Below are positions 37,816 through 58,172 of a stretch of DNA of 64,000 bases, one piece after another. Positions within the stretch are counted from its first letter, which is position 1, and each line of letters begins with the position of its first letter. A model generated the notes under the pieces. That model did not search any database, was not told the origin of the DNA, and saw only the letters and a list, made by a program, of their open reading frames with translations. Both the position numbers and the translations under genes were made by a program. The stretch lies in contig NZ_GL882637.1 in assembly GCF_000195635.1 (NCBI RefSeq), positions 1 through 64,000 on the forward strand, given 5' to 3'. The stretch is from Bacteroides fluxus YIT 12057 (GTDB lineage Bacteria > Bacteroidota > Bacteroidia > Bacteroidales > Bacteroidaceae).

Positions 37816-37911
37816 TTATTCGTCCGACAATCGTCTAATTATCGTCCGACACCTGTTGCATTATCGTCCGACAGTTGTCGGACGATAATGCAACAGGTGT
37901 CGGACGAATAA
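37816..37911. repeat. 22-bp periodic CGTCCGAC array with perfect 31-bp inverted repeat
   Basis: CGTCCGAC starts at 37821, 37843 and 37865 (steps of exactly 22), and its reverse complement GTCGGACG starts at 37877 and 37899 (again 22). The arms 37843-37873 and 37876-37906 are perfectly complementary over 31 bases with a 2-base loop, so the RNA or DNA could form a very stable hairpin. The outer TTATTCGTCCGAC (37816-37828) is also complementary to 37899-37911. There is no T-run, so it is not an ordinary terminator. Confidence 0.85.
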
Positions 37912-38011
37912 ATTTATTCCAAGGAGAAATTAACTGACGGCAACTCCCGGAAGAGTCCAATGCCACAACGGCTCCAGACCGAGCGCCACACGTCCTGCAT
38001 AACGTGGAAGC

Positions 38012-38072
38012 CGTAACCGTATCGTAACAGAATCGTTACCCGTTCTTCAACCCACCGTAAAACACACGTAAC
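38012..38072 (+). promoter_or_regulatory. 11-bp-phased CGTAAC array (Pho-box-like) upstream of TonB receptor
   Basis: CGTAAC starts at 38012 and 38023, CGTTAC at 38034, CGTAAA at 38056 and CGTAAC at 38067; only the 38045 position is degenerate. Period 11 is the spacing of direct-repeat half-sites bound by PhoB-type (OmpR-family) regulators. The array ends 11 bases before the -7 element at 38083, the position of an activator overlapping the -33 region. Confidence 0.6.
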
Positions 38073-38082
38073 GGGAACCCTC

Positions 38083-38090
38083 TACTTTTG
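38083..38090 (+). promoter_or_regulatory. -7 promoter element of the TonB receptor-phosphatase operon
   Basis: TACTTTTG fits TAnnTTTG, 30 bases before the ATG. No TTG lies at the -33 position; that place is occupied by the phased CGTAAC sites, which suggests activator dependence. Confidence 0.7.
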
Positions 38091-38119
38091 CGGCAGATTA
38101 TTAACGGATAATAACAAGT

Positions 38120-40888
38120 ATGAAACAGGTTTTAAGAGCATTCTTATTCTTGCTCCTTTTCACAACAGCCGGCAACGGGGCCATGGCTGACGAAAAAGCA
38201 AATATCATCAAACAAGGAACAGTGCGCGGACGTATCATCGACGCAGCCAAACAAACCCTCCCGGGTGCTTCTATCTACATCGAGAAACTACACACCGGCG
38301 TAACAAGCGACGTCAACGGCTTCTACACTTTCTCTAACCTTGACCCGGGAACCTATACAGTAAAGGTGAGCTACGTGGGTTACTCCCCCGTGGAACTGAA
38401 AATCACCATCCCCGCCGGACGGACACTGGAAAAAGACGTTGTACTGAATGAAGGCGTAGAGCTGCAGGAGGTAGTGATAGGCGGCGCCTTCCAGGGACAG
38501 CGACGTGCCATCAACTCACAAAAAAGCACCATGGGAATCACCAACGTCGTCTCTGCCGACCAAGTGGGCAAGTTTCCCGACTCCAACATCGGTGACGCCC
38601 TGAAACGCATATCCGGCATCAACGTGCAGTATGACCAGGGTGAGGCACGCTTCGGACAAGTGCGCGGCACAAGCGCAGACCTCAGTTCCGTGACCATCAA
38701 CGGCAACCGCGTCCCTTCCGCCGAAGGCGACACACGGAATGTACAGCTCGACCTTATCCCCGCCGACATGATCCAGACCATCGAAGTGAACAAAGTGGTG
38801 ACCTCCGACATGGACGGCGATGCCATCGGCGGATCCATCAACCTGGTCACGAAAAACTCTCCCTACAAACGTACTGTCGCCGCCACCGCCGGAACCGGCT
38901 ACAACTGGATAAGCGAGAAAGCACAGCTGAACCTTGGGTTTACCTACGGAGACCGTTTCTTCAACGACAAACTGGGGCTGATTGTATCCGCTTCTTACCA
39001 GAACGCCCCTTCGGGCTCCTACGACACGGAATTTACCTGGGAGCAGGACGACAACGGAAAAACATACGTCAACGACTACCAAATCCGCCAATATTACGTC
39101 ACCCGCGAACGCCAAAGCTACTCTGCCGCACTGGACTGGGACCTCAGCGCCAACCACAAACTGACTTTCAAGGGTATCTTCAACAACCGCAACGACTGGG
39201 AGAACCGGTACCGCACTACACTGAAAGACCTTGATTCCGACGGCAACGCCACCGTACGCGTGCAGACCAAAGCCGGTACACCGGACAACCGCAACGCCCG
39301 CCTGGAGCGCCAGCGCACCATGGACTTCGCCCTCGGCGGCGAACACCTCTTCGGAGCACTTTCCATGGACTGGCACGCAAGCTATGCCAAAGCTACCGAA
39401 GAACGCCCGAACGAACGCTACATCGACTTCCAGCTGAAAAAGCAAAAGTTCAACATGGACCTGAGCGACGGACGCCGGCCATACGCCACTCCCAAAGACG
39501 GCTATACCATGACGCTGAATGATGAGTTCAGCCTGAAAGAACTGACCGAACAACAAGAGGACATCAAAGAGCAGGACCTCAAGTTTGCAGCCAACTTCAA
39601 ATTGCCTTTCAAGAACGGAAACAAACTGAAATTCGGCGCCAAGGTAGTGCGCAAGACCAAAGACAAAGAAGTCGATTTCTATGAATACTCCCCGCTGGAC
39701 GAGGATGCCTTCATGACCAACAGCCTGAAGAACACGGTGGACCAGACCAACAAGAATTTCATGCCCGACAATAAATACCAAGCAGGAATCTATGCCGGCA
39801 AGGAATATGTAGGCTCACTGAATCTGAACGACCCTTCCCTCTTCGAGAAAGAACAGGTGCAAGAGGAATTGGCAGGCAACTTCGAAGCCCGCGAGACAGT
39901 CACTTCCGGCTACATCCGCTTCGACCAGAAACTGACAAGGAATGTGGAGCTGATGTCCGGCCTCCGCATAGAAAACACCAGCCTTGCCTATACCGGACGC
40001 ACATACGACGCCGATGAAGACCTGACCAGCAAGACAGACCGCCAACGCAACAGTTACGTCAACTTCCTGCCGTCACTGCTCGTCAAATGGAATGTAAACG
40101 ATGACTTCAAGGTACGCGGTTCGTTTACCCAGACCTTGTCACGCCCCAAATACTCGGCACTTGTACCCAGCGTCAACATCAAACGTTCCGACAATGAAAT
40201 CACCATCGGAAACTCCGACTTGAAGCCGACCGTATCCTACAACTTCGACCTCAGCGCCGACTACTACTTCCGCAGCATCGGTCTGGTCAGCGCCGGCCTC
40301 TTCTACAAAAAAATCGATGACTTCATCGTAAACCAGATCAGCACCAACTACGAGTACCAGGGCAATGTATATACCCGCTTCACACAACCCAAGAATGCAG
40401 GCAATGCCAATCTGATAGGCCTGGAGCTCTCCTATCAACGTGATTTCAGCTTCATAGCACCGGCCTTGAAGTGTGTAGGTTTCTACGGGACATATACTTA
40501 TACCCACTCCCGCATAGAGAATTTCAACTTCGAAGGACGCGAGAACGAAAAAAATCTCAGCATGCCGGGTTCACCCGAACATACGGCCAACGCCTCGCTC
40601 TACTTCGAGAAAGGCGGACTGAACCTGCGCCTGAGCTACAACTTCGCTTCCGACTTCATCGACGAAATGGGCGAGAGCACCTTCTATGACCGCTACTATG
40701 ACAAAGTGAACTACATGGATGCCAATGCCAGCTATACCTTCGGAAAGAAAGTGAAGACTACCTTCTATGCCGAAGCCAACAACCTGCTGAACCAACCGCT
40801 GCGTTACTACCAGGGAACGAAGGACCGTACCATGCAGGCCGAATACTATGGAGTGAAGGTTAATGCCGGAGTGAAAATCAATTTTTAA
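38120..40888 (+). CDS. TonB-dependent receptor with CarboxypepD_reg domain (not SusC type)
   Basis: A 922-residue outer-membrane receptor. Signal peptide ~1-24. CarboxypepD_reg-like domain ~35-115 ('VRGRIIDAAKQTLPGASIYI'). Plug ('VSADQVGKFPDSNIGDALKR', 'GISVNV..QVRGTSADLSSVTING'-like, 'VTSDMDGDAIGGSINLVTK'). Large barrel ending 'GVKVNAGVKINF'. The 'FPDSNIGDALKRISGI' and 'DGDAIGGSINLVTK' segments mark the TonB receptor group found beside phosphatases and phytase-like enzymes, distinct from SusC; there is no SusD neighbour. It starts 15 bases before the metallophosphoesterase gene ends the operon spacing. The Pho-like array upstream suggests import of a phosphorylated compound or phosphate scavenging. 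Family firm, substrate inferred. Confidence 0.88.
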   Translation: MKQVLRAFLFLLLFTTAGNGAMADEKANIIKQGTVRGRIIDAAKQTLPGASIYIEKLHTGVTSDVNGFYTFSNLDPGTYTVKVSYVGYSPVELKITIPAGRTLEKDVVLNEGVELQEVVIGGAFQGQRRAINSQKSTMGITNVVSADQVGKFPDSNIGDALKRISGINVQYDQGEARFGQVRGTSADLSSVTINGNRVPSAEGDTRNVQLDLIPADMIQTIEVNKVVTSDMDGDAIGGSINLVTKNSPYKRTVAATAGTGYNWISEKAQLNLGFTYGDRFFNDKLGLIVSASYQNAPSGSYDTEFTWEQDDNGKTYVNDYQIRQYYVTRERQSYSAALDWDLSANHKLTFKGIFNNRNDWENRYRTTLKDLDSDGNATVRVQTKAGTPDNRNARLERQRTMDFALGGEHLFGALSMDWHASYAKATEERPNERYIDFQLKKQKFNMDLSDGRRPYATPKDGYTMTLNDEFSLKELTEQQEDIKEQDLKFAANFKLPFKNGNKLKFGAKVVRKTKDKEVDFYEYSPLDEDAFMTNSLKNTVDQTNKNFMPDNKYQAGIYAGKEYVGSLNLNDPSLFEKEQVQEELAGNFEARETVTSGYIRFDQKLTRNVELMSGLRIENTSLAYTGRTYDADEDLTSKTDRQRNSYVNFLPSLLVKWNVNDDFKVRGSFTQTLSRPKYSALVPSVNIKRSDNEITIGNSDLKPTVSYNFDLSADYYFRSIGLVSAGLFYKKIDDFIVNQISTNYEYQGNVYTRFTQPKNAGNANLIGLELSYQRDFSFIAPALKCVGFYGTYTYTHSRIENFNFEGRENEKNLSMPGSPEHTANASLYFEKGGLNLRLSYNFASDFIDEMGESTFYDRYYDKVNYMDANASYTFGKKVKTTFYAEANNLLNQPLRYYQGTKDRTMQAEYYGVKVNAGVKINF

Positions 40889-40903
40889 AATAAGTACCAG
40901 AAC

Positions 40904-41839
40904 ATGATGAAGAAACTATACCTTTTATTATTCGCCGCCCTGCTTTGCCAGGCGGCAACCGCCCAGATCACCGACTATTCCATCTTTGACAAGAAGTTCA
41001 ACTTCTACGTTGCCAACGACCTGGGACGCAACGGCTACTATGACCAGAAGCCCATTGCCGAACTGATGGGGCAGATGGCCGAGAACGGAGCGGATCCCGA
41101 ATTCGTACTTGCCACCGGAGATGTACACCACTTTGAAGGCGTACGCAGTGTGAACGACCCGCTTTGGATGACCAACTACGAACTGATTTACAGCCATCCG
41201 GAGCTGATGATTGACTGGTTCCCCTTATTGGGAAACCATGAATACCGCGGCAATACGCAGGCCGTACTCGACTACAGCAAGATCAGCCGCCGCTGGACAA
41301 TGCCCGCCCGTTATTATACCAAGACTTTCGAAGACAAAGGCGCCACTATCCGCATTGTCTGGGTGGACACCGCCCCGATGATCGACAAATACCGCAACGA
41401 AAGCGAGACTTATCCCGATGCCTGCAAGCAGGATTGCCAAAAGCAGCTTGCCTGGGTGGACTCCGTATTGACTGCCGCCAAGGAAGACTGGGTCATCGTG
41501 GCCGGACACCATCCCATCTATGCCGAAACCCCGAAGGACGAAAGCGAACGCCGGGATATGCAAAACCGTCTCGACCCCGTCTTGCGCAAGCACAAGGTGG
41601 ATATGTATATCTGCGGGCATATCCATAACTTCCAGCATGTACGCGTGGCAAGCAGCGACATCGACTATATCACCAATTCAGCCGGCTCACTCGCCCGCAA
41701 GGTGAAGCCCATCGAAGGAACCGTATTCTGTAGTCCCGAACCGGGCTTCTCTATCGTGTCGGCCAACAAACGAACACTGGAGCTGCGCATGATCGACAAG
41801 AAAGGAAACGTACTGCACACGGTGACACGCAGCAAATAA
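40904..41839 (+). CDS. Secreted metallophosphoesterase (purple-acid-phosphatase-like)
   Basis: A 311-residue calcineurin-like phosphatase. Signal peptide ~1-20 ('LLLFAALLCQAATAQ'). Metal-binding motifs in order: 'VANDLGRNG' (variant first Asp block), 'ATGDVHHFEG', 'LLGNHEYRGN', 'VAGHHPIYAE' and 'CGHIHNFQHV'. This layout matches acid phosphatases that release phosphate from organic esters in the periplasm. It begins 15 bases after the TonB receptor stop, so the two form one operon; receptor plus phosphatase behind a Pho-box-like array implies phosphate acquisition. Family firm. Confidence 0.9.
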   Translation: MMKKLYLLLFAALLCQAATAQITDYSIFDKKFNFYVANDLGRNGYYDQKPIAELMGQMAENGADPEFVLATGDVHHFEGVRSVNDPLWMTNYELIYSHPELMIDWFPLLGNHEYRGNTQAVLDYSKISRRWTMPARYYTKTFEDKGATIRIVWVDTAPMIDKYRNESETYPDACKQDCQKQLAWVDSVLTAAKEDWVIVAGHHPIYAETPKDESERRDMQNRLDPVLRKHKVDMYICGHIHNFQHVRVASSDIDYITNSAGSLARKVKPIEGTVFCSPEPGFSIVSANKRTLELRMIDKKGNVLHTVTRSK

Positions 41840-41899
41840 TCCACCGCACCTCAACATAACTTTTTCATGCAAAAAGGAAGGTTCTGTTGAGGTTTGCAC

Positions 41900-41907
41900 T
41901 ATCTTTG
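41900..41907 (+). promoter_or_regulatory. -7 promoter element of the Na/Ca exchanger gene
   Basis: TATCTTTG, 20 bases before the ATG at 41928, fits the TAnnTTTG consensus. A TTG lies at 41887-41889, closer than the optimum. Confidence 0.65.
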
Positions 41908-41927
41908 TATCCAAAATAAACATTCTT

Positions 41928-42899
41928 ATGGATATATTGTTTCTTGTCGGAGGACTGCTCCTCATTCTTCTGGGTGCCAACGGACTGACTGACGGCGCCG
42001 CTTCTGTCGCCAAACGTTTCCGCATACCGTCCATCGTCATCGGGCTTACCATCGTCGCTTTCGGTACTTCCGCACCGGAGCTTACCGTCAGCATATCTTC
42101 TGCCCTGAAAGGCAGTGCAGACATCGCCATCGGCAATGTGGTAGGAAGCAATATATTCAACACCTTGATGATCGTGGGCTGTACAGCCCTTTTTGCCCCG
42201 ATAGCCATCACCCGCAATACGCTGAAGCGCGAAATCCCCCTTTGCATCCTCTCGTCCTTCGCCTTGCTGATTTGCGCCAACGACATTTTCCTGGACGGTA
42301 GCCGGGAAAACATACTCAGCATCACCGATGGACTGTTGCTGCTGTGCTTCTTTGCCATCTTCCTAAGCTACACCTTCGCCATCGCAAAAAGAGACGGAGA
42401 AATGAAGGAAACCTCGCAGAGTGAGGAGGAAGAAATCAGACAACTGCCTATGTGGAAATCTGCCTTGTACATTCTCGGCGGACTTGCCGGACTCATCGTC
42501 GGAGGCAACTTCTTTGTAGAGGGCGCCAGCGGCATAGCCCGCAGTCTGGGTGTCAGCGAGTCTGTCATCGGCCTCACGCTCGTGGCAGGCGGAACTTCGC
42601 TGCCCGAACTTGCCACCTCCATCGTCGCCGCCTTGAAGAAAAACCCCGAAATAGCCATCGGCAACGTCATCGGCAGCAATCTCTTCAATATATTCTTCGT
42701 GCTGGGCTGTTCGGCTTCCATCACTCCGCTGCACCTGACGGGCATCACCAATTTCGACCTGTGGGTACTGGTCGGCTCCAGCCTCCTGCTCTGGCTGTTC
42801 GGCGTGTTTTTCGGGAAACGCACCATCACCCGGATGGAAGGGAGCATTCTGATTCTCTGCTATGTGGCTTACACGGCTGTACTGATATATAGTCTCTGA
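41928..42899 (+). CDS. Calcium/sodium antiporter (YrbG/NCX family)
   Basis: A 323-residue inner-membrane exchanger with about ten helices and the two inverted alpha repeats of the Ca2+:cation antiporter family: 'VAFGTSAPELTVS' with 'GNVVGSNIFNTL' in the first half, and 'VAGGTSLPELATS' with 'GNVIGSNLFNIF' in the second. The conserved Glu/Asn in each repeat form the cation site. A charged loop ('KRDGEMKETSQSEEEEIRQL') separates the halves. It is monocistronic, with its own promoter, and neighbours do not point to a pathway. Confidence 0.92.
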   Translation: MDILFLVGGLLLILLGANGLTDGAASVAKRFRIPSIVIGLTIVAFGTSAPELTVSISSALKGSADIAIGNVVGSNIFNTLMIVGCTALFAPIAITRNTLKREIPLCILSSFALLICANDIFLDGSRENILSITDGLLLLCFFAIFLSYTFAIAKRDGEMKETSQSEEEEIRQLPMWKSALYILGGLAGLIVGGNFFVEGASGIARSLGVSESVIGLTLVAGGTSLPELATSIVAALKKNPEIAIGNVIGSNLFNIFFVLGCSASITPLHLTGITNFDLWVLVGSSLLLWLFGVFFGKRTITRMEGSILILCYVAYTAVLIYSL

Positions 42900-43019
42900 C
42901 AACAAATCTCCAGACACCCTGCAAGGCATTTTAAAGGTTATCACGTCTCTCCAAATAAGGCAAGCCGCACCTCGGCATAAAAAATAAGCAAGCTTATTTT
43001 TTTATGCCCTCAGTTTGCA

Positions 43020-43027
43020 TTACCTTT
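43020..43027 (+). promoter_or_regulatory. -7 promoter element of the GNAT-like gene
   Basis: TACCTTTG, 23 bases before the ATG at 43050, fits TAnnTTTG. A small AT-rich inverted repeat (AAAAAATAAGC and GCTTATTTTTTT near 42979-43003) lies just upstream and may terminate the previous gene. Confidence 0.65.
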
Positions 43028-43049
43028 GTCGCCTCAATATTAAACAACT

Positions 43050-44186
43050 ATGGCAATTACAATCAAAAAAGTAACCACAAGACGGGAGCTGGAGCGCTTC
43101 ATCCGTTTCAACTACCTGCTATACAAAAACAACCCTTATTCCGTCCCCGACCTCTTCGATGACATGCTCAATACCTTCAACAAGAAGAAGAACGCTGCAT
43201 TCGAATTCTGCGAAGCCGACTATTTCCTGGCTTATCGGGAAGGTAAAATCGTAGGACGCGTAGCTGCCATCATCAACCACAAGGCCAACCAAACCTGGAA
43301 CAAGAAGGAAGTCCGCTTCGGCTGGATAGACTTCATCGACGATGCGGAAGTTTCCGACGCCTTGATTCGCACCGTGGAAAAATGGGGAAAGGAACGGGGA
43401 ATGACACATATACAAGGCCCGCTGGGATTCACCGACTTCGATGCCGAAGGCATGCTTGTCGAAGGATTCGACCAGCTCAGCACCATGGCCACCATCTACA
43501 ACTATCCCTACTACCCGCAGCACATGGAGCGCATGGGATTCGGGAAGGATGCCGATTGGGTGGAATACAAAATCTACATCCCGGATGCCATACCGGACAA
43601 GCACAAGCGTATCTCCGACCTCATCCAACGCAAATATAACCTCAAGATAAAGAAATATACGTCTGCCAAGAAGATTGTCCGCGACTACGGCCAAGCCATT
43701 TTCGAACTGATGAACGAAGCCTATCAGCCACTCTACGGCTATTCTGCACTGTCACAACAGCAGATTGACCAGTACCTCAAGATGTACCTGCCCATCCTCG
43801 ACCTGCGCATGGTGACGCTGATTACCGATGCCGACGACCAACTGCTTGCCGTAGGAATCTCCATGCCGTCCCTCGCCGAGGCCTTGCAGAAAGCCCACGG
43901 CCGTCTGCTTCCTATGGGCTGGTACCATCTCCTCAAAACTATCTTCTTGAGAAAATACCCGAAAATGCTTGACCTGCTGCTGGTTGCCGTAAAACCGGAA
44001 TACCAGAACAAGGGCGTCAATGCACTGCTGTTCTCCGACCTTATCCCCGTCTATCAGAAACTTGGTTTCGAGTATGCCGAAAGTAATCCGGAACTGGAAC
44101 TGAACGGCAAAGTACAAGCCCAATGGGAGTACTTCAAGACGGAACAGCACAAACGGAGAAGATGCTTCGTGAAGGAAATCCAATGA
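43050..44186 (+). CDS. GNAT-superfamily N-acetyltransferase-like protein
   Basis: A 378-residue protein conserved in Bacteroidetes and annotated as an N-acetyltransferase. The N-terminal half has a GNAT-like sheet ('YFLAYREGKIVGRVAAIINH') and 'IQGPLGFTDFDAEGMLVEGF'. The C-terminal half has the acetyl-CoA site-like 'VKPEYQNKGVNALLFSDLIP' and 'LGFEYAESNPELE'. It is cytosolic with no signal peptide. The substrate is unknown. It is monocistronic upstream of parE, which has its own promoter. Fold call is good; activity is not established. Confidence 0.8.
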   Translation: MAITIKKVTTRRELERFIRFNYLLYKNNPYSVPDLFDDMLNTFNKKKNAAFEFCEADYFLAYREGKIVGRVAAIINHKANQTWNKKEVRFGWIDFIDDAEVSDALIRTVEKWGKERGMTHIQGPLGFTDFDAEGMLVEGFDQLSTMATIYNYPYYPQHMERMGFGKDADWVEYKIYIPDAIPDKHKRISDLIQRKYNLKIKKYTSAKKIVRDYGQAIFELMNEAYQPLYGYSALSQQQIDQYLKMYLPILDLRMVTLITDADDQLLAVGISMPSLAEALQKAHGRLLPMGWYHLLKTIFLRKYPKMLDLLLVAVKPEYQNKGVNALLFSDLIPVYQKLGFEYAESNPELELNGKVQAQWEYFKTEQHKRRRCFVKEIQ

Positions 44187-44238
44187 AAACAGTTTCTTAA
44201 AAACTTCCTTGTTTTTTGCGAACCTCCGATTTTATAGT

Positions 44239-44246
44239 TACTTTTG
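44239..44246 (+). promoter_or_regulatory. -7 promoter element of parE
   Basis: TACTTTTG, 40 bases before the ATG at 44286, fits TAnnTTTG and should drive the parE-coaD-S41 peptidase operon. Confidence 0.65.
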
Positions 44247-44285
44247 CGCAAAGCACCTATAAATAGGCATTTAACAACAAACTAA

Positions 44286-46220: not shown

Positions 46221-46669
46221 GAAGAGCAATCTTTCCGGGAACATTCGACCCCTTTACCATCGGGCACTCCTCGGTAATAAACCGCGCGCTGACCTTTATA
46301 GACGAGATCGTCATAGGAATCGGTATCAACGAGAACAAAAACACGTATTTCCCTACCGAGAAGCGCGAAGATATGATACGGAACCTCTACCGGAACGAGC
46401 CGCGCATCATTGTACAGTCGTATGACTGCCTGACCATTGACTTTGCCAAGCAGATGAATGCCAATCTGATCATACGTGGCATCCGTACCGTAAAGGACTT
46501 CGAATACGAGGAAACCATTGCGGACATCAACCGGAAACTGACCGGCATCGAGACCATCCTGCTCTTCACCGAGCCGGAACTTACCTGTGTCAGTTCCACT
46601 ACCGTGCGCGAACTGCTGAAATACGGCAAGGACATAAGCATGTTCATACCGGAAGGAATGGAAATATAA
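46217..46669 (+). CDS. coaD: Phosphopantetheine adenylyltransferase
   Basis: A 150-residue nucleotidyltransferase that transfers AMP from ATP to 4'-phosphopantetheine, the penultimate step of coenzyme A synthesis. Motifs: '[16 protein letters not shown]' (T/HxGH nucleotide site), '[20 protein letters not shown]' and '[14 protein letters not shown]' (the I/V-S-S-T-x-V-R motif). Normal family length. It overlaps the parE stop by four bases and is followed 11 bases later by the S41 peptidase gene. Confidence 0.95.
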
Positions 46670-46680
46670 AGAAACAAGAT

Positions 46681-48297: not shown

Positions 48298-48337
48298 TCG
48301 GAAGAGCGTCAAAAGTATATGGATACTTTCATTTTTC

Positions 48338-48387: not shown

Positions 48388-48391
48388 AAAA

Positions 48392-48994: not shown

Positions 48995-49017
48995 AAAATC
49001 TTCGTATTAAGTGATTG

Positions 49018-49066: not shown

Positions 49067-49099
49067 TTCCCGTATTTATAATAATCCGCCTATCATTTC

Positions 49100-50020
49100 A
49101 TGACAATGGATACTTGTTGCACCCGGCAAATCAATTGTACTACATGTCCCAAAATCTCAGAAGGAGTGTTGGTGTATAACCAATTCTCGCAAGGGCAATA
49201 TTTCCCTGCCGAAAAATGCACACAGAACTGCATGATCTTCATGCTGAAAGGTGACCTGCTCATAAACAGCGCAGAGTATCCGGGAACCACTCTGCACAGC
49301 AACCAGATCATACTGCAAGCCATCGGCTCCACAATGGAACTGCTGGCCCTTACCGATGTGGAATACATTGTTTACCGGTTCACCGAGCTCCCCGCGCTTT
49401 GCGAGGAGCGCTATAAGGAAATACTCAACCGTTCCGAAGCCCCCTTGACCTACACTCCCCTGACAGCTATTCCAAAGCTGAAATATCTGCTGAAAGACCT
49501 TGCCGAGTATCTGAGGGAACAGTCTCCGGCCTGCGGCAAATACATCGACATCAAATGCCAGGAGCTGGTTTACATTCTCACATGCTATTATCCGTTGCCC
49601 CAGATCAGTACATTCTTCTACCCCATCAGTACCTATACCGAAAGTTTCCATTATTTCGTCATGCAGAATTATGACAAAGTAAAGAATGTGGAGGAGTTTG
49701 CCCACCTTGGAGGATATACGACGACCACCTTCCGGCGACTGTTTAAAAACATGTATAACGTACCGGTATATGAATGGATTCTGGACAAGAAACGTGAAGG
49801 TATCCTGAACGACCTGCAACATACCAAACAACGCATATCCGCCATCAGCGCCCGCTATGGCTTCGACTCCCTGTCCCACTTCGCACACTTCTGCAAAGAC
49901 TCTTTCGGGGATACGCCCCGTTCTCTGCGTAAACGCTCCGCCAATGGAGAAAGGATCACCATCATCTGCAAAGAGAAGGCCGGAGAGGACAACAGCGGCA
50001 CAAAACCTGCTGATCTGTAA
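49100..50020 (+). CDS. AraC-family transcriptional regulator with Cys cluster at N-terminus
   Basis: A 306-residue regulator. The N-terminal ~190 residues form a cupin-like sensor ('FMLKGDLLINSAEYPGTTLH', 'QIILQAIGSTMELLALTDVE'). The C-terminal AraC HTH runs from ~205 to 290 ('NVEEFAHLGGYTTTTFRRLF', 'RISAISARYGFDSLSHFAHF' and 'CKDSFGDTPRSLRKR'). Four cysteines lie in the first 16 residues (MDTCCTRQINCTTCPK), which could bind metal or respond to redox. It lies just upstream of the fumarate reductase operon and of a 22-bp periodic array that starts two dozen bases after its stop, so it may control that operon, but this is inferred from position only. Confidence 0.85.
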   Translation: MTMDTCCTRQINCTTCPKISEGVLVYNQFSQGQYFPAEKCTQNCMIFMLKGDLLINSAEYPGTTLHSNQIILQAIGSTMELLALTDVEYIVYRFTELPALCEERYKEILNRSEAPLTYTPLTAIPKLKYLLKDLAEYLREQSPACGKYIDIKCQELVYILTCYYPLPQISTFFYPISTYTESFHYFVMQNYDKVKNVEEFAHLGGYTTTTFRRLFKNMYNVPVYEWILDKKREGILNDLQHTKQRISAISARYGFDSLSHFAHFCKDSFGDTPRSLRKRSANGERITIICKEKAGEDNSGTKPADL

Positions 50021-50021
50021 T

Positions 50022-50145
50022 ATCTATATCCCTGACTTACGGGATATATAGATGCAACATACGGGATCTATAGATACAACGTGTCAGGAATATAGATGTG
50101 ACAAGTCGGGCATATAGATACGACAAGTCAAATATATAGATACAA
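50022..50145. repeat. 22-bp periodic TATAGAT array between the AraC and frd genes
   Basis: TATAGAT starts at 50047, 50069, 50091, 50113 and 50135, each exactly 22 bases apart, followed by purine/pyrimidine alternatives and AAC or GAC. An inverted copy ATCTATA at 50022-50028 forms a hairpin with the first unit (ATCTATATCCC with GGGATATATAGAT). The rest of each 22-base unit varies. It begins two bases after the AraC stop and ends about 60 bases before the frd promoter. Confidence 0.85.
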
Positions 50146-50182
50146 TCCCCCGGACTTATTACGGAATTATTTCTTTAATTCC

Positions 50183-50213
50183 TTGTTTAATCAATGGATT
50201 TCCCCTATTTTTG
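50183..50213 (+). promoter_or_regulatory. Promoter of the fumarate reductase operon
   Basis: TTG at 50183-50185, a 20-base spacer and TATTTTTG at 50206-50213 fit the Bacteroides promoter consensus. The leader before the ATG at 50284 is about 64 bases. Confidence 0.7.
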
Positions 50214-50283
50214 CGAAACATTTACATAAGTGTCTTTGTAGAAAATATTTTCTAACTATTAAATAATTTAAATTCAATCATTT

Positions 50284-50988
50284 ATGTGGTTAAGTAATTC
50301 ATCTGTAGGAAGGAAAGTGGTGATGAGTATTACCGGTATCGCCCTTGTCCTGTTTCTGACATTTCACATGGCGATGAACCTTGTTGCATTAATCTCCGCC
50401 GAGGGATACAACATGGTTTGTGAGTTCCTGGGAGCAAACTGGTATGCATTGGTGGCAACGGCAGGTCTGGCTGCCTTGTTTATCATCCATATCATCTACG
50501 CTTTCTGGTTGACTATGCAAAACCGCAAGGCACGCGGTAACGAGCGTTATGCCGTAGTAGAAAAACCGAAAACCGTAGAATGGGCTTCCCAAAACATGCT
50601 CGTATTGGGTATCATCGTAATCGTAGGCTTAGGTCTGCACCTGGTAAACTTCTGGTCCAAGATGCAGCTCCCCGAGTTGATGCACAACATGGGTGCACAT
50701 GCCGACACGCTGACTCTGGCTTATGCAGCCAACGGTGTCTATCACATCCAGAACACTTTCTCCAACCCGGTATTTGTAGTGCTTTACCTCATCTGGCTGG
50801 GCGCGCTGTGGTTCCACCTGACTCACGGTTTCTGGAGCTCCATGCAGTCTCTGGGCTGGAACAACAAAGTATGGATTAACCGTTGGAAATGTATTTCCGG
50901 CATCTACTCCACTATCGTTGTTGTATGCTTCGCTCTGGTAGTTGTCGTATTCTTCATCAAATCACTGATGTGCGGCGGCGCTTGCTAA
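50284..50988 (+). CDS. frdC: Succinate dehydrogenase/fumarate reductase cytochrome b subunit
   Basis: A 234-residue membrane subunit with five helices that anchors the enzyme, binds heme and reacts with menaquinone. Helices include 'VVMSITGIALVLFLTFHMAM' and 'LVATAGLAALFIIHIIYAFW'. Conserved His are in 'FHMAMN', 'FIIHIIY', 'VYHIQN' and 'WFHLTHG', as in di-heme Wolinella/Bacteroides-type subunits. It is the first gene of frdCAB. In Bacteroides the complex reduces fumarate to succinate during anaerobic fermentation. The gene symbol sdhC is equally used. Confidence 0.93.
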   Translation: MWLSNSSVGRKVVMSITGIALVLFLTFHMAMNLVALISAEGYNMVCEFLGANWYALVATAGLAALFIIHIIYAFWLTMQNRKARGNERYAVVEKPKTVEWASQNMLVLGIIVIVGLGLHLVNFWSKMQLPELMHNMGAHADTLTLAYAANGVYHIQNTFSNPVFVVLYLIWLGALWFHLTHGFWSSMQSLGWNNKVWINRWKCISGIYSTIVVVCFALVVVVFFIKSLMCGGAC

Positions 50989-51025
50989 GAAAGTAAATTG
51001 TAAATGATTAAATTGTAATAGCATT

Positions 51026-52972
51026 ATGACTAAGATAGATTCTAAAATACCGGAAGGACCGGTAGCTGAGAAATGGACCAATTATAAAGCTCACCAAAAA
51101 TTAGTGAACCCTGCCAACAAACGCCGTCTGGACATCATCGTAGTAGGAACCGGACTTGCCGGTGCCAGTGCTGCCGCTTCCCTCGGTGAAATGGGTTTCA
51201 GAGTATTCAACTTCTGCATCCAGGATTCTCCGCGCCGTGCACACTCTATCGCTGCACAGGGCGGTATCAATGCTGCAAAGAATTACCAAAACGACGGTGA
51301 CTCCGTTTACCGTCTGTTCTACGATACAGTAAAGGGCGGTGACTACCGTGCCCGCGAGGCCAACGTTTACCGTCTGGCTGAAGTATCCAACAATATCATC
51401 GACCAATGCGTTGCACAAGGCGTTCCTTTCGCCCGCGAATACGGCGGTACGCTGGACAACCGTTCTTTCGGTGGCGCACAGGTATCCCGTACTTTCTACG
51501 CTAAAGGCCAGACCGGACAGCAGCTGCTGCTGGGCGCATACTCTGCATTGAGCCGCCAGGTGAACGTAGGTACCGTGAAACTATATACCCGCTATGAGAT
51601 GGAAGACGTTGTCCTCATTGACGGACGCGCCCGCGGTATCATTGCAAAGAACCTCGTTACCGGTAAATTGGAACGTTTTGCCGCCCATGCAGTAGTTATC
51701 GCTACCGGAGGTTACGGCAACGCCTACTTCCTTTCTACCAACGCCATGGCATGTAACTGCTCTGCAGCAATGGCTTGCTACCGTAAAGGTGCGTGGTTTG
51801 CCAACCCGGCTTACGTGCAGATTCACCCCACTTGTATTCCGGTTCACGGTGACAAGCAGTCCAAGTTGACTTTGATGTCCGAATCTCTGCGCAACGACGG
51901 ACGTATCTGGGTTCCGAAGAAGCTGGAAGACGCCAAGAAACTGCAAGAAGGTACACTGCAAGGAAAAGACATTCCCGAAGAAGACCGCGACTACTATCTG
52001 GAACGCCGCTATCCGGCATTCGGTAACCTCGTTCCGCGTGACGTTGCCAGCCGTGCCGCCAAAGAACGTTGCGACAAAGGCTATGGCGTGAACAACACAG
52101 GCCTTGCCGTATTCCTTGACTTCAGCGATGCCATCAACCGCTTAGGTGTCGACGTGGTGCGTCAGCGTTACGGCAACCTCTTCGACATGTATGAAGAAAT
52201 CACCGACGTGAACCCCGAACACAACCCGATGATGATTTATCCGGCTATCCACTACACCATGGGTGGTATCTGGGTTGACTACGAACTGATGACCTCCGTC
52301 AAGGGTCTGTTCGCTATCGGTGAATGCAACTTCTCCGACCACGGTGCAAACCGCCTCGGCGCTTCCGCACTGATGCAAGGTTTGGCCGACGGTTACTTCG
52401 TATTGCCCTATACTATCCAGAACTATCTGGCCGACCAGATTACCGTTCCCCGCTTCTCTACCGACCTGCCTGAATTTGCTGCTGCAGAAAAGGCTATCCA
52501 GGACAAGATTGACTGGATGATGAACATCAAGGGTAAAAAGTCCGTTGACTCCATCCACAAAGAGCTGGGTCATGTAATGTGGGAATATGTAGGTATGGGA
52601 CGTACCGCAGAAGGTCTGAAAGAAGGCTTGAAGAGACTGAAAGAAATCCGTAAAGAGTTCGAAAAAGAACTGTTCATCCCCGGTGAAAAAGAAGGCATGA
52701 ACGTAGAGCTTGACAAAGCTATCCGTCTGTACGACTTTATCATAATGGGCGAGCTTGTTGCTTACGACGCCTTGAACCGCAACGAAAGCTGCGGTGGCCA
52801 CTTCCGTGAAGAATACCAGACTGAAGAAGGCGAAGCCAAGCGTGACGACGAGAACTACTTCTACGTTGCTTGCTGGGAATACCAAGGCTCTGATGAAAAA
52901 GAACCGGTATTGCTGAAAGAACCTTTGGTTTACGAAGCGATCAAAGTACAGACTCGTAACTATAAGAGCTAA
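51026..52972 (+). CDS. frdA: Succinate dehydrogenase/fumarate reductase flavoprotein subunit
   Basis: A 648-residue catalytic subunit with covalently bound FAD. N-terminal dinucleotide motif '[20 protein letters not shown]', then '[20 protein letters not shown]' (His linking the flavin), '[20 protein letters not shown]', and the capping and active-site segment '[38 protein letters not shown]' (in part). It oxidises or reduces succinate/fumarate on the cytosolic face; as in other Bacteroides, fumarate reduction is the likely direction. It lies 37 bases after frdC and 79 before frdB. Confidence 0.95.
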
Positions 52973-53051
52973 GTAAGTTAGTTATTATTAACCCGCTATG
53001 AGCAGGAGTTCCCGTAACTCGCTGCTTGTAGCCCATAACAGTTCTAAAACA

Positions 53052-53807
53052 ATGGATAAAAATATATCATTTACGCTCAAGGTATGGCGCCAGAAGGGTC
53101 CGAAAGCAAAAGGCGCTTTTGAAACATACCAAATGAAAGATATTCCGGGCGATACTTCATTCCTCGAAATGCTGGATATTCTGAACGAACAACTCATCAG
53201 CGAGGGCAAGGAGCCGGTTGTGTTTGACCATGACTGCCGCGAAGGTATCTGCGGTATGTGCTCTCTTTACATCAACGGTCATCCGCACGGTCCTGCAACA
53301 GGTGCCACTACCTGTCAGATTTATATGCGCCGTTTCAACGACGGTGACACTATCACTGTTGAGCCATGGCGTTCTGCCGGCTTCCCGGTAATCAAGGACT
53401 TGATGGTGGATCGTACCGCTTTCGACAAGATCATGCAGGCCGGCGGTTACGTCAGCGTACGCACGGGAGCTCCCCAGGATGCCAACGCGATCTTGATTCC
53501 GAAGCCCATTGCCGATGAAGCTATGGATGCCGCTTCCTGTATCGGTTGCGGTGCTTGTGTAGCTGCTTGTAAGAATGGTTCGGCCATGCTGTTCGTTTCC
53601 GCTAAAGTCAGCCAGCTGAATCTGCTGCCCCAAGGCAAGCCGGAAGCGTTACGCCGTGCAAAAGCCATGTTGAGCAAGATGGATGAGCTGGGATTCGGTA
53701 ACTGTACAAACACTCGTGCTTGTGAGGCAGAATGTCCGAAGAACGTTTCTATCAGCAACATTGCCCGCTTGAACCGTGACTTCATCATTGCGAAGTTGAA
53801 AGACTGA
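53052..53807 (+). CDS. frdB: Succinate dehydrogenase/fumarate reductase iron-sulfur subunit
   Basis: A 251-residue electron-transfer subunit. The [2Fe-2S] ferredoxin domain has cysteines in '[18 protein letters not shown]'. The C-terminal alpha-helical ferredoxin domain has '[14 protein letters not shown]' and '[15 protein letters not shown]' for the [4Fe-4S] and [3Fe-4S] clusters. It passes electrons between frdC menaquinol and frdA FAD. The frame opens at 52998, but ATG 53052 ([16 protein letters not shown]) gives the family N-terminus. Last gene of the operon, followed by an intrinsic terminator. Confidence 0.95.
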
Positions 53808-53841
53808 TCAGCACTTTCTACATTTGATTAATATCACAAAG

Positions 53842-53880
53842 AACTCCTCTTCCGGGAAACCGGCGGGGGAGTTTTTTTTA
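53842..53880 (+). terminator. Intrinsic terminator of frdCAB
   Basis: AACTCC pairs with GGAGTT and CCGG with CCGG around a GAAA loop, followed by nine T residues. It lies 34 bases after the frdB stop. Confidence 0.85.
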
Positions 53881-54007
53881 TGAGGAAGCTTTATTATCAT
53901 TTCGCCACCCATTTAACGCATATGGAATACAAAAAGATAACTCGTGTGCGAAAACAGCAAAAAATCAGTGAAATAGTTTTAAAAGGAACGCCGTGACAGG
54001 ACTGATA

Positions 54008-54039
54008 TTTGGAAGATACGGACAGAACCTTTACATTTG
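54008..54039 (+). promoter_or_regulatory. Strong Bacteroides promoter of a candidate small RNA
   Basis: TTTG at 54008-54011, a 20-base spacer and TACATTTG at 54032-54039 match both promoter boxes. No plus-strand gene follows, only a hairpin-terminator 47 bases downstream. Confidence 0.65.
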
Positions 54040-54045
54040 CAATGT

Positions 54046-54110
54046 GATTTTTTTCATAGTATTAGATTTAAGGTTAACAAAGGTTGGAGTACAGCGGTAC
54101 TCCTTTTTTT
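54046..54110 (+). ncRNA. Candidate small RNA of ~65 nt
   Basis: A transcript starting about 7 bases after TACATTTG would run to a compact intrinsic terminator: GGAGTAC (54086-54092), loop AGCG, GTACTCC (54097-54103), T x7. The body is AT-rich (TGATTTTTTTC...) with no open frame of note. It lies in the 326-base gap between convergent frdB and dprA. It is either an independent sRNA or, less likely, the remnant of a leader. No known family is recognised. Confidence 0.5.
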
Positions 54111-54133
54111 ATGCCTCCCAATAAGGAGTCCTT

Positions 54134-55249
54134 TTATCTTAAGTGATAGACTCCGCCCACCAACGCTTTCACCACCCCTTTCATTTCCAGTTCAAAAAGT
54201 AAGGCACTCATCCGGTTTACCGGCAGGTTGGCCTCTACCACCAGTGTATTGATGTGCAGGTCGCCCCGACAGGACAGGATATGCACCACCCCCTCTTCCT
54301 CCTCCGACAGATCCGGAAAAAGATTCCGCTGGACGGCTTCGGGTTTTTCCGCTTTTGAAACAGGCATCCATCCCATAGCGCAGACCAGATCCTCCGCAGA
54401 CTGGATCAACGCCGCCTTATTGTCACGTATCAACCGGTTACAACCGATAGAAGCAGCATCCGACGCACGCCCCGGAACGGCAAAACAATCACGGTGATAT
54501 CCCACCGCCAAATCAGCGGTGATGAGCGAACCTCCTTTTTCGGAAGACTCTACCACCACCGTAGCGTCACACATACCCGCCACGATGCGGTTGCGGCTGA
54601 CAAAGTTGAAGCGGTCAGGATTGGTTTCGGTAAGAAATTCTGTAAGCAGGCCACCATCCGCCAACATATCGACAGCCGTCTTGCGGTGTACGAATGGATA
54701 AATACGGTCCATCCCATGCGCCAGCACCGCCACGGTGGAAAGCCGGTTTGCCAGCGCAGCACGATGTGCGTGGATATCAATTCCATACGCCAGCCCGCTG
54801 ACAACCAACACATCCGGGCAAAGCACAGCCATCTCATGCAGGAAATCGGCACAAAACTGTTTCCCGTAATCGGTGGCACGGCGAGTACCGACCATATTGA
54901 TAACCCGGAGCCGGTTAAAGTCTGTATTTCCTTTGAAGAACAATACGATGGGAGCATCCTCACACTCTCGCAAACGAGAAGGATAAGCCTCATCTTTCAA
55001 CGTCAGACAAGAGATACGGTTTTTCTCCACAAATTCCATCTCCTGCCCGGCACGAAGAAAGGCGGCAGGACAATCAAGTGCAGTGACCGTGGCAGGATTG
55101 ATGCCCGGAAGAATTTCAGGAAGCTCCTTACGGTTGCGGAACACCTCTACGGCACTGCCCGCCCCCTCTATCAAACGTTTCGCCCCGATATGTCCTATAC
55201 CGGGGCAAAGCGTGAGGGCTATACTGCATATGCGTTCGTCACTGTTCAT
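54134..55249 (-). CDS. dprA: DNA-processing protein DprA
   Basis: A 371-residue single-stranded DNA-binding protein that loads RecA during uptake and recombination of transforming DNA. It has a SAM-like N-terminal part ('LCPGIGHIGAKRLIE'), the Rossmann-type core ('VINMVGTRRATDYGKQFCAD', 'VVSGLAYGIDIHAHRAAL', 'VLAHGMDRIYP', 'GGSLITADLAVGYHRDCFAV') and a C-terminal winged helix ('DLHINTLVVEANLPVNRMSA'). The start is ATG 55249, 11 bases inside the end of the thioesterase gene, so the two are coupled. In Bacteroides it is present without an obvious full competence operon. Confidence 0.93.
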   Translation of the reverse strand: MNSDERICSIALTLCPGIGHIGAKRLIEGAGSAVEVFRNRKELPEILPGINPATVTALDCPAAFLRAGQEMEFVEKNRISCLTLKDEAYPSRLRECEDAPIVLFFKGNTDFNRLRVINMVGTRRATDYGKQFCADFLHEMAVLCPDVLVVSGLAYGIDIHAHRAALANRLSTVAVLAHGMDRIYPFVHRKTAVDMLADGGLLTEFLTETNPDRFNFVSRNRIVAGMCDATVVVESSEKGGSLITADLAVGYHRDCFAVPGRASDAASIGCNRLIRDNKAALIQSAEDLVCAMGWMPVSKAEKPEAVQRNLFPDLSEEEEGVVHILSCRGDLHINTLVVEANLPVNRMSALLFELEMKGVVKALVGGVYHLR

Positions 55250-55664
55250 GATTGAGGTAGGGGGCAAAGACGTTGTCAAATAACTCGCTGTCGCTCAAAC
55301 GTCCGTTTACCACACATACCGTTTCAACCACCGACTTAATGGCTACTTTATTATCACACTTGCGGAAAATATCCTGGTAGAAAACATACTTGATGCCTTC
55401 CTTTTTCATGTACAATCTGGATACAAATTCATCGCCGCTCTTCAGAGGTGTCTTGAATGCCATGCTGATGCGTGCCACCACCGGATCCACTCCCTGTTCA
55501 TGGAGCCCGGCAAAGCTGACGCCCGCGCTCAACAAGAACTCATGGCGCGTATGTTCCAGATAGTGCTGATAGTTGGCATTGTTGACAATACCCTGCAGGT
55601 CGCATTCATAATCACGCACCTTCATCTCCAGTTCATAAATATACTTCTCCATAATGGTCTTCAT
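55239..55664 (-). CDS. Acyl-CoA thioesterase (4HBT hotdog fold)
   Basis: A 141-residue hotdog-fold thioesterase. The 4-hydroxybenzoyl-CoA thioesterase-type motif 'RDYECDLQGIVNNANYQHYL' (active-site Asp region) is followed by the helix 'EHTRHEFLLSAG' and the sheet 'VARISMAFKTPLKSGDEFVS'. It hydrolyses acyl-CoA or acyl-ACP thioesters in the cytosol; substrate not evident. It lies between the U32 peptidase gene (21 bases upstream) and dprA (overlap) on the minus strand, forming a likely three-gene operon. An alternative start is ATG five codons later (MEKYIYELEM). Confidence 0.88.
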   Translation of the reverse strand: MKTIMEKYIYELEMKVRDYECDLQGIVNNANYQHYLEHTRHEFLLSAGVSFAGLHEQGVDPVVARISMAFKTPLKSGDEFVSRLYMKKEGIKYVFYQDIFRKCDNKVAIKSVVETVCVVNGRLSDSELFDNVFAPYLNHEQ

Positions 55665-55685
55665 ATTGTATCATTTTCTGATAGG

Positions 55686-56975
55686 TCAACCTCGTTGCTT
55701 CTCCACATCCAGGCCCTTGAACTTTTTCAGTTCTTCTACGGAAACCAGCTTGTAAAGCTTGTCGCTCGGACGTATCTTCACCGATTTCATCGAGAAATGC
55801 TGCCCTTTCCTTACAGTCTGTACGGGCTTCAAGTCAACACGCGCCTCGTCCAAAGTGACGAATTCCGCACCGGTCGTAGGTCCTGTTATCAGCAACTTGT
55901 CTCCTACACTGACTTCGGCAGCCTCTACCAGGAACTCCGCCACACCGATATTGCTGAAATAGCGGATGCCCTTACCCACATAAATCTTACGCTCTGTGGC
56001 GGCGGAACCGTAATTCCTGGTCCATTCGCCCAAGCGTTGTCCCAAGTAGTAGCCGTCCCAGAAGCCACGGTTAAAGACCGTCTTCAGCCGTTCGTCCCAA
56101 ACGGTGATCTTCTCGTCGGTGAAGGTACCGTCCAAATAAGCACGGATAGCTTCCTTGTAACATTCTACTACGGTACGCACATATTCGGGGCCGCGGGCAC
56201 GCCCTTCTATCTTGAACACACGCACACCGGCATCCAGCATCTTGTTCATGAAGTGAATGGTCTTCAGGTCCTTGGGCGACATGATATATTGGTTGTCCAC
56301 TTCCAGTTCCACATCCGTCTCCTTGTCGCGCACGGTGTAGCTGCGGCGGCAAACCTGCATGCAGGCTCCCCGGTTGGCAGAGTGGTTCATTTCGTGCAAG
56401 GAAAGGTAACACTTGCCGGACACTGCCATGCAGAGCGCACCGTGGCAGAACATCTCTATACGTATCTGCTCCCCGCCGGGGCCGCAGATATTCTCCTCAC
56501 GGATATGGCGGTAGATTTCCGCCACCTGCTCCAGATTCAGTTCGCGTGCCAGCACCACCACATCGGCAAACTGCGCATAGAAGCGCAGCGCCTCCACATT
56601 GCTGATGTTGAGCTGTGTGCTGAGGTGCACCTCCTGCCCTATACTGCGGGCATAGCTCATCACCGCCACGTCCGCCGCAATCACGGCGGAAATGCCGGCC
56701 TCATGAGCGGCATCCACGATGGTGCGCATCAAGGGTATATCATTGTCGTAGATGATGGTATTTACCGTAAGATAACTTTTCATCCCGTGCTCGTCACACG
56801 TCCGGGCTATCTCGCGCAAATCATCAATCGTAAAGGTATTCGCCGAACGGGCACGCATGTTCAGGTTCTCGATGCCGAAATAGACAGAGTCGGCACCTGC
56901 CTGTATGGCTGCCGCAAGCGACTCGCGTGAGCCTACCGGAGCCATGATTTCGAAATCTTTTATTGTAGCGTTCAT
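55686..56975 (-). CDS. U32-family peptidase / tRNA hydroxylation-type protein
   Basis: A 429-residue protein. The N-terminal TIM-barrel region ('IMAPVGSRESLAAAIQAGAD', 'VYFGIENLNMRARSANTFT') carries the U32 signature 'EMFCHGALCMAVSGKCYLS' near residue 165, with Cys residues in 'NRGACMQVCRRSY' that probably bind an Fe-S cluster. The C-terminal beta domain starts near 'YVGKGIRYFSNIGVAEFLV'. YegQ/TrhP-type relatives are needed for tRNA wobble-uridine hydroxylation, though the family was first described as collagenase-like. The open frame continues upstream over the dusB gene, but ATG 56975 preceded by a minus-strand -7 element fixes the start. Divergent dusB is also a tRNA-modifying enzyme. Confidence 0.88.
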   Translation of the reverse strand: MNATIKDFEIMAPVGSRESLAAAIQAGADSVYFGIENLNMRARSANTFTIDDLREIARTCDEHGMKSYLTVNTIIYDNDIPLMRTIVDAAHEAGISAVIAADVAVMSYARSIGQEVHLSTQLNISNVEALRFYAQFADVVVLARELNLEQVAEIYRHIREENICGPGGEQIRIEMFCHGALCMAVSGKCYLSLHEMNHSANRGACMQVCRRSYTVRDKETDVELEVDNQYIMSPKDLKTIHFMNKMLDAGVRVFKIEGRARGPEYVRTVVECYKEAIRAYLDGTFTDEKITVWDERLKTVFNRGFWDGYYLGQRLGEWTRNYGSAATERKIYVGKGIRYFSNIGVAEFLVEAAEVSVGDKLLITGPTTGAEFVTLDEARVDLKPVQTVRKGQHFSMKSVKIRPSDKLYKLVSVEELKKFKGLDVEKQRG

Positions 56976-56999
56976 ATTATCTTCTTTAATAAACATGTA

Positions 57000-57028
57000 C
57001 AAAGGTAGGCTTTTTTTCCGTACTTTTG
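57000..57028. promoter_or_regulatory. Overlapping divergent promoters of the U32 peptidase and dusB genes
   Basis: CAAAGGTA at 57000-57007 is TACCTTTG on the minus strand (25 bases before ATG 56975). TACTTTTG at 57021-57028 is on the plus strand (44 before ATG 57072). With about 20 bases between them the two RNA polymerases must compete for the same DNA. Confidence 0.7.
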
Positions 57029-57071
57029 CACGAAACAGACAGGCACTTGTGTCTGATTTCCTATTAAATTT

Positions 57072-58049
57072 ATGAAAATCAAAGAAATAGAATTTGGCAA
57101 GTATCCTACATTCCTCGCTCCGATGGAGGATGTCACCGACCCGGCTTTCCGCCTGATGTGCAAGCAGTTCGGGGCAGACATGGTATATACCGAGTTCGTT
57201 TCTGCAGACGCCTTGATACGTTCTGTAGGCAAGACCCGGCAGAAGCTGAACATCAGCGACGCAGAACGGCCCGTAACCATACAGATATACGGGCGGGACA
57301 CGGAAACGATGGTGGAAGCCGCCCGCATCGTGGAACAGGCACGCCCGGACATACTGGACATCAACTTCGGCTGTCCCGTGAAGCGCGTGGCAGGCAAGGG
57401 CGCCGGCGCAGGCATGTTGCAGAATGTACCCTTGATGCTTGAAATCACCCGTGCCGTGGTGGATGCCGTGAAGATACCCGTCACCGTGAAGACACGGCTG
57501 GGCTGGGATGCCAACAATAAAATCATCGTCGACCTTGCCGAACAGCTGCAGGACTGCGGCATCGCCGCCCTTACCATACACGGACGCACCCGTGCGCAGA
57601 TGTACACCGGCGAGGCGGACTGGACGCTCATCGGCGAGGTAAAGAAGAACCCTCGCATGCGCATCCCCATCATCGGCAACGGAGACATCACCACTCCCCA
57701 ACGCGCCAAGGAGTGTTTCGACCTCTACGGCGTAGATGCCATCATGATAGGCCGCGCCAGCTTCGGACGCCCGTGGATATTCAAGGAAGTGAAGCATTAT
57801 CTGGAAACGGGCGAGGAACTGCCCCCGCTAAGCAGTGAATGGCGGATGGAGGTGCTGCGCCGGGAAGTGGAAGATAGCGTCAACCTGCTGGACGAGCGCC
57901 GGGGCATCCTGCACGTACGCCGCCACCTGGCGGCAAGCCCGCTGTTCAAGGGCATTCCCAACTTCCGGGATACAAGGATAGCCATGCTACGGGCAGAGAC
58001 CAAAGAGGAACTGTACCGCATCTTCGACACCATCGCCCCGTTACTCTGA
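57072..58049 (+). CDS. dusB: tRNA-dihydrouridine synthase (DusB type)
   Basis: A 325-residue FMN-dependent enzyme that reduces uridine to dihydrouridine in the tRNA D-loop. TIM barrel with 'FLAPMEDVTDPAFRLMCKQF', the active-site Cys in 'DILDINFGCPVKRVAGKGAG' (about C101), 'VTVKTRLGWD', 'TIHGRTRAQMYTGEADW' and 'PIIGNGDITTPQRAKE'. The C-terminal helical RNA-binding domain has 'RRHLAASPLFKGIPNFR'. Length and motif order fit DusB. Monocistronic, divergent from the U32 peptidase gene. Confidence 0.93.
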   Translation: MKIKEIEFGKYPTFLAPMEDVTDPAFRLMCKQFGADMVYTEFVSADALIRSVGKTRQKLNISDAERPVTIQIYGRDTETMVEAARIVEQARPDILDINFGCPVKRVAGKGAGAGMLQNVPLMLEITRAVVDAVKIPVTVKTRLGWDANNKIIVDLAEQLQDCGIAALTIHGRTRAQMYTGEADWTLIGEVKKNPRMRIPIIGNGDITTPQRAKECFDLYGVDAIMIGRASFGRPWIFKEVKHYLETGEELPPLSSEWRMEVLRREVEDSVNLLDERRGILHVRRHLAASPLFKGIPNFRDTRIAMLRAETKEELYRIFDTIAPLL

Positions 58050-58082
58050 TAAACCGTTTTCTTTATCCGTCGAGCTGACGTT

Positions 58083-58172
58083 ACCTTAGGGATGGCAAAG
58101 TTGTGCCACCGTGTTGGCAAAGTTGTGCCACAGGCAAGGCACAGTTGTGCCATCCCTAAGGCACAAATATCG
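58083..58172. repeat. 22-bp periodic GTTGTGCCA array between convergent dusB and PAP2 genes
   Basis: GTTGTGCCA starts at 58100, 58122 and 58144, exactly 22 bases apart. The preceding GGCAAAG/GGCACAG words follow the same phase (units at 58092, 58114, 58136, with AAGGCACA again at 58158). Each unit is itself palindromic (TGGCA ... TGCCA). The whole is bounded by the 14-bp inverted repeat CCTTAGGGATGGCA and TGCCATCCCTAAGG. No T-run follows. Confidence 0.85.

Follow-up and report, generated by a model that had tools for sequence, protein, structure and literature searches.

Arrays of 22-bp phased palindromic units between Bacteroidaceae genes: probable cores of many short dispersed element families

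Three intergenic arrays, each built on its own short word repeated at an exact 22-bp step, lie in a 64,000-nt stretch of Bacteroides fluxus YIT 12057 (contig NZ_GL882637.1, positions 1 to 64,000; hereafter the window), and raise the question of what would hold unrelated words to one spacing. Every window position given in an earlier sequence-only reading was rechecked, and all words and coordinates were as stated. In a lag scan of the window (44 columns, lags 8–60), 32/44 was reached at lag 22 only, and the three top places of the scan were the three arrays.

Array 1 (37820..37907; strand is unassigned for all array features given here) is exactly 88 bp long and comprises four 22-bp units of the CGTCCGAC family (family 1), with CGTCCGAC at 37821, 37843 and 37865, and reverse copies at 37877 and 37899. 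Each unit is composed of 10 + 2 + 10 bp (half, spacer, half), with the half-site TCGTCCGACA forward in units 1–3 and inverted in units 3–4; the pivot unit (37864..37885), which has both, is palindromic save for its central 2 bp (TCGTCCGACA-GT-TGTCGGACGA). A perfect 32-bp inverted repeat is contained within the array, bearing out the dyad symmetry claimed earlier. The left outer flank (37806..37819, TTACTAAAAGTTAT) is inverted-repeat-like and was found in diverged form in other family-1 copies, and the right outer flank (37908..37921, ATAAATTTATTCCA) is its diverged counterpart, both judged from an 8-copy alignment. The array is preceded by a putative methyltransferase gene (36520..37731, + strand, PG_1098_Fer and THUMP-like domains) and followed by a TonB-dependent receptor gene (38120..40888, +). 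Array 2 (50022..50155) carries five TATAGAT words at 22-bp steps (50047, 50069, 50091, 50113 and 50135), and begins 1–2 bases past the stop of an AraC-type gene (49100..50020, +, HTH_18); next comes a gene for a succinate dehydrogenase cytochrome b subunit (50284..50988, +, Pfam match below the curated cut-off). Array 3 (58079..58171) carries three GTTGTGCCA words at 22-bp steps (58100, 58122 and 58144) with partial units on both sides, and lies between convergent genes, encoding a tRNA-dihydrouridine synthase (Dus; 57072..58049, +) and a PAP2 superfamily protein (58207..59217, −). The window's only Rfam match at the gathering threshold is the FopS small RNA (54044–54113, +, RF04319, 72.5 bits).

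Whether 22 is commoner than other lags, the comparison on which the sequence-only reading had staked its claim, was examined in this genome and in relatives, and lag 22 was outstanding in both. For B. fluxus, 820 kb were scanned (the window and stretches partly picked for holding family 1, about one fifth of the genome), giving 18 regions at lag 22 (32/44) versus 1–5 at any other lag, the floor of 1 probably arising from N runs scored as matches. Four 200-kb stretches from congeners (G044, G021, G047 and G042), located via synteny with one methyltransferase gene, gave 24 regions at lag 22, two of them non-independent since the G044 and G021 stretches each end at a locus with a known array, and 20 at lag 44 (2 × 22), with all remaining lags in 10–60 scoring 0–3. 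This density, 24 in 800 kb or ~30 arrays per Mb, would correspond to well over a hundred per genome if the stretches are typical. Among 80 named dusB loci (1.42 Mb, mostly Bacteroidaceae, 29/44), 46 regions were found at lag 22, 31 at lag 44, and 0–8 at the rest; 271 kb from other families of the order gave 2 regions each at lags 22 and 23, and 200 kb of E. coli K-12 gave none at lag 22. A fixed 22-bp geometry in unrelated words points to one protein or one physical constraint. Also present in B. fluxus is a second dispersed family, of period 21 (L020, L029, L044, L048, L050 and L053), made of TTC-N9-GAA palindromes with 6-bp spacers, e.g. TATCCG and TATATA, often close past stops.

Searches of the genus showed why the three window words share nothing: they are three of many dispersed families, and the impression of a different word at each site, true within the window, reflects these families. 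The family 1 pattern had 19 matches in B. fluxus and 0 in a reversed control, with 0 exact matches in 48 congeners and a single odd match among 32 genomes from other families; diverged members were recovered by DNA search in 7 of 50 genus genomes, B. fluxus included. The array 3 family was found in 12 of the 50 (B. fluxus included, up to 18 matches in one genome), and the array 2 family in 6 of 6 searched genomes, with 33 matches in G042, 24 in G047 and 2 in B. fluxus, where one locus can contain several matches. The earlier suggestion of a family of palindromic repeats is supported, with many families in place of one. Some G042 copies have a common unit order and leader sequence over up to about 300 bp (77–86% identity for the four longest copy pairs), which points to whole-element copying. 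In B. cellulosilyticus (L253, L255 and L256), the leader of one array subfamily has an inverted repeat of its own, AACAAGCAATGTAAT and its inverse. Plasmids gave no match to array 1, and a phage search gave one record, MT838822 (unannotated, 4.8 kb), which is identical to a B. cellulosilyticus array locus and is probably a chromosomal fragment.

A regulon was considered and rejected, the 10 proteins beside eight family-1 arrays being unrelated in kind: a TonB receptor, a DUF5686 protein, a PAS/histidine-kinase-type ATPase, another TonB receptor and an aminotransferase, as well as leucyl-tRNA synthetase, HU-HIG, DUF4925, chorismate synthase and RNase Y. No transposase was found by a Pfam scan of 20 proteins around 11 arrays, a set that includes a few second neighbours; two of the proteins had no match at all, and one gene (L028:10898-11461) is possibly not real. 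At one family-1 locus (L034:9524-15168, contig C92), the array separates a HU-HIG gene from a Cas9 gene in divergent orientation (RuvC_III, HNH_4, bridge helix).

Gene calls for the positional analysis were rough and script-made; they missed dusB in the window, and some starts were called late, lengthening the distances to starts. None of 106 distinct lag-22 arrays lay inside a called gene. In co-directional gaps, 39 of 44 arrays were closer to the upstream stop, at medians of 52 bp from the stop and 204 bp to the next start, and the claim that arrays sit close behind stops therefore holds on average. All three window arrays follow plus-strand stops (37731, 50020 and 58049), as the sequence-only reading had it, but arrays elsewhere also occupy divergent gaps (19 of 93 distinct arrays with known context). 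Convergent gaps were mildly enriched (22/95, versus 15% of intergenic bases; p = 0.045 by bases, 0.009 by number), and divergent gaps showed no significant depletion (19/95, p = 0.16–0.20), two arrays being counted twice in these 95-array tests, whereas the 106- and 93-array counts are free of duplicates.

Unit numbers, taken from rounded core length, were four in 49 of the 106 arrays, three in 28, five in 17, and other in 12. The best-phase dyad score was 0.60 (66 arrays) versus 0.47 for column-permuted units, with 67% of the 66 arrays above the control's 95th percentile, and the palindrome was even in 47 of the 66. An operator array bound by a dimer could well show such even palindromes at a constant step, and the nucleoid- or transposon-protein binding array suggested by the sequence-only reading would likewise be compatible with the findings. 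Within arrays of the 8 family-1 copies, pivot units left out, units in opposite orientation matched at ≥21/22 in 5 of 14 pairs, compared with 1 of 10 direct pairs within an array and 2.8% of 252 pairs between arrays. These near-exact inverted units (5/14 versus 2.8%) lend limited support to the proposal that the repeats evolve in concert, and may be read as the product of hairpin-templated copying.

Comparison of sister species provided one site with both an occupied and an empty form. A TATAGAT element between two convergent genes is present in G042 and absent in G047, where the stop codons of the two genes overlap (CTTTAATTGCC); the G042 element has CTTTAAT on one side and TTAATTGCC on the other, giving a 5-bp duplication (TTAAT), and both genes keep their stops. 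From this two-species comparison the G042 copy is read as a probable insertion, the alternative being that G047 lost the element through a deletion across the paired TTAAT copies. This was the one clean target-site duplication found; two further array-bearing segments were present in one species and absent in the other, with untidy junctions. Between G021 and G044, five array comparisons aligned as shared (in one, the array itself reached just 61% likeness), and one array occurred in G021 only, some arrays being unplaced where flanks were not found.

Taken together, these observations suggest, with a probability of roughly 0.6, that each array forms the core of a short intergenic element, non-autonomous and dispersed, and that Bacteroidaceae carry many families of such elements, which behave like MITEs or REPs and have their core of phased dimer sites mobilised in trans. 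Three features speak for mobile DNA elements: strand-neutral symmetry, the lack of T tracts, and the copy that one species has and its sister lacks, with its 5-bp duplication. The copies are short, non-coding, dispersed and intergenic, as MITEs are, and are shared unevenly between species; the family-1 copies have inverted-repeat-like outer flanks in the 8-copy alignment, and no autonomous partner copy was found. In the mechanism proposed, the elements would insert at new sites with the aid of a factor acting in trans, a dimeric protein requiring a two-turn spacing of its sites along one face of the DNA would bind the palindromes, insertion would be tolerated, or preferred, at gene ends, and hairpin-templated copying during replication could keep the inverted units of an array alike. 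Repeated sites ~22 bp apart on one helical face are familiar from the 22-bp TnsB sites of Tn7, from MuA sites and from plasmid iterons, and Tn7 and Mu insertions give 5-bp duplications; those sites are not known to be palindromic, each kind typically serving a single element, and no such protein is linked to the arrays here.

No published description of such 22-bp phased arrays was found in the open-licence papers searched. Among the described elements found, BrickBuilt of Porphyromonas gingivalis comes nearest. BrickBuilt is a MITE with an internal 23-nt minisatellite, and in the part of its description used here it forms one family with 19 copies in P. gingivalis and strong hits also in P. 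gulae, each with 1 to 22.8 repeats, a leader, a tail, and terminal inverted repeats resembling ISPg1 and ISPg9 ends (PMC4596501). As far as that part of the source goes, the two share an order (Bacteroidales), a dispersed, intergenic, non-autonomous element with no transposase inside, and an imperfect direct-repeat array with a step of about two helical turns and with conserved and variable repeat positions. The arrays here differ in forming many families across Bacteroidaceae, in having a period of 22 and mostly three to five palindromic units, and in showing unrelated words in the same gaps of sister species; none of the three window words occurs in the BrickBuilt consensus as given there, and the 23-nt repeat of BrickBuilt is not the period of these arrays. 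One locus from another family of the order (L300:8223-8310 and 9623-9765) has a single word, CTCACAAGTTTGTCAG, in two arrays with a period of 23, as in BrickBuilt.

The strongest rival, itself rather unlikely, is that the arrays are functional gene-end modules (transcription roadblocks, insulators, or docks for nucleoid proteins), in which a slot needs some phased palindrome array and the word is replaceable. Support for it comes from 31 orthologous G047/G042 gaps (150–1500 bp), with arrays in both species in 4, in one in 3, and in neither in 24. All four gaps with arrays in both had unrelated words, with a best 22-mer of 12–16/22 versus 12–19 for non-orthologous arrays (n = 20), and 22/22 was reached by two shared G021/G044 arrays; in one of the gaps, both species have the beginning of the array no more than about 15 bp from a common stop codon (stop placed by eye). 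A fifth gap, less securely aligned, showed the same pattern of unlike words, and L098/L110 gave another example of one gap with different words, behind dusB. Position sharing with unlike words was significant in one species pair only, G047/G042 (p = 0.002; p = 0.11 with gaps ≥ 220 bp only). Over the dusB loci sharing was not significant (both 2, one 46, neither 632; p = 0.11), which makes slot conservation suggestive only, and the excess of loci with an array in one species (46 versus 2) speaks against a required slot. The clustering behind stops (39/44) and the mild convergent-gap enrichment (p = 0.045) would fit such modules, but insertion tolerance at gene ends predicts identical clustering, and divergent gaps are not significantly depleted.

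Preservation of the 22-bp step also fits gene-end modules. Orthologous arrays of ≥75% identity had 0 indels in 518 bp versus 18 in 1535 bp of flank (0 in 625 bp versus 19 in 1827 bp with a doubly counted array, A199242 = L162:462), a sum that left out four aligned arrays below 75% identity (three C/D, one A/B) with 4 to 11 indels each, and that is partly biased because detection requires an intact step in one species. Substitutions in seven aligned orthologous arrays were 27/249 in the word versus 29/207 in the rest of the unit (p = 0.32), and words were thus not significantly slower, a result that does not demonstrate continuous selection on the word; the lack of extra word conservation weakens present-day sequence-specific binding, and so counts against the mobile-element reading with its dimer sites. 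A first count in favour of selection on the word (14/306 versus 24/185) was withdrawn, its classes having been defined by the scored base. In a rather unlikely version, Bacteroidaceae chromosomes would carry, by extrapolation from the sampled stretches, well over a hundred exchangeable gene-end modules; each word would have its own member of a diversified family of dimeric DNA-binding proteins, with spreading and boundary roles, and slots would persist as words were swapped between sister species. If that were true, an array would be kept as a local chromatin or transcription boundary.

Structured 3′ UTR RNA elements (terminators, stabilisers, or sites for RNase III or RNA-binding proteins), for which 22 nt would be two A-form turns, are improbable. 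The window arrays fold strongly (z of −12.7, −3.2 and −6.7 for arrays 1, 2 and 3), and many arrays lie just past stops, but they show no strand bias: after arrays inside called genes were dropped, folding energy was better on the sense strand in 19 and on the antisense strand in 23 of 42 co-directional arrays, and sense-strand G·U and A·C mismatches numbered 131 and 125 (31 arrays). An intrinsic terminator, a hairpin with a U tract, was rejected on an outward T tract at 19 of 212 array ends versus 23 for an A control. Arrays in divergent gaps, and the lack of any Rfam match on the window arrays at the gathering threshold, count further against the structured 3′ UTRs proposed by the sequence-only reading. 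The arrays do occupy gaps that are searched for terminators and promoters in a much-studied gut genus, and may confuse terminator and small-RNA annotation.

A very small probability is assigned to REPs mobilised by RAYT (Y1) transposases, or CGTC-tagged REPs. In the part of the source consulted, REPs are GTAG- or CGTC-tagged hairpins of 20–40 bp, often dimers, the CGTC-tagged kind having an unpaired CGTC tag, an 8–9 bp stem and a 4–5 nt loop and being reported from Bacteroidetes (PMC3733652). The likeness, to that extent, lies in small palindromes between genes, mostly downstream, in species-specific families with inverted partners, and the arrays here show lineage-specific expansion and placement behind genes, with CGTC in the family-1 word. 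That CGTC is no unpaired tag, but pairs with GACG in the pivot (TCGTCCGACA-NN-TGTCGGACGA), and 22-bp phasing is unmentioned in the same part of PMC3733652. Membership of the RAYT/REP group was rejected on the cognate transposase: no Y1_Tnp match was found in B. fluxus, G021 or G042, all array-bearing, and 12 of 50 genus genomes have one.

Simple minisatellites, in which arbitrary 22-mers would have been duplicated locally in tandem and then decayed, are similarly implausible, for although a few arrays, at L098 and L075, are long or close to perfect and substitution rates in conserved and variable columns do not differ significantly, the period is 22 whatever the word, the same word occurs at many loci, the units are palindromic beyond the column-permuted control, and G042 copies agree in unit order and leader sequence.

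Arrays of unlike words or periods directly abut at L080:20557-20878, L083:11862-12111, L126:3303-3533 and L143:482-682, as if one array were a target or a safe place for another. Palindromic arrays may also break assemblies: two contigs (C31 and C40; L030 and L035) each begin within a family-1 array, apparently one and the same.
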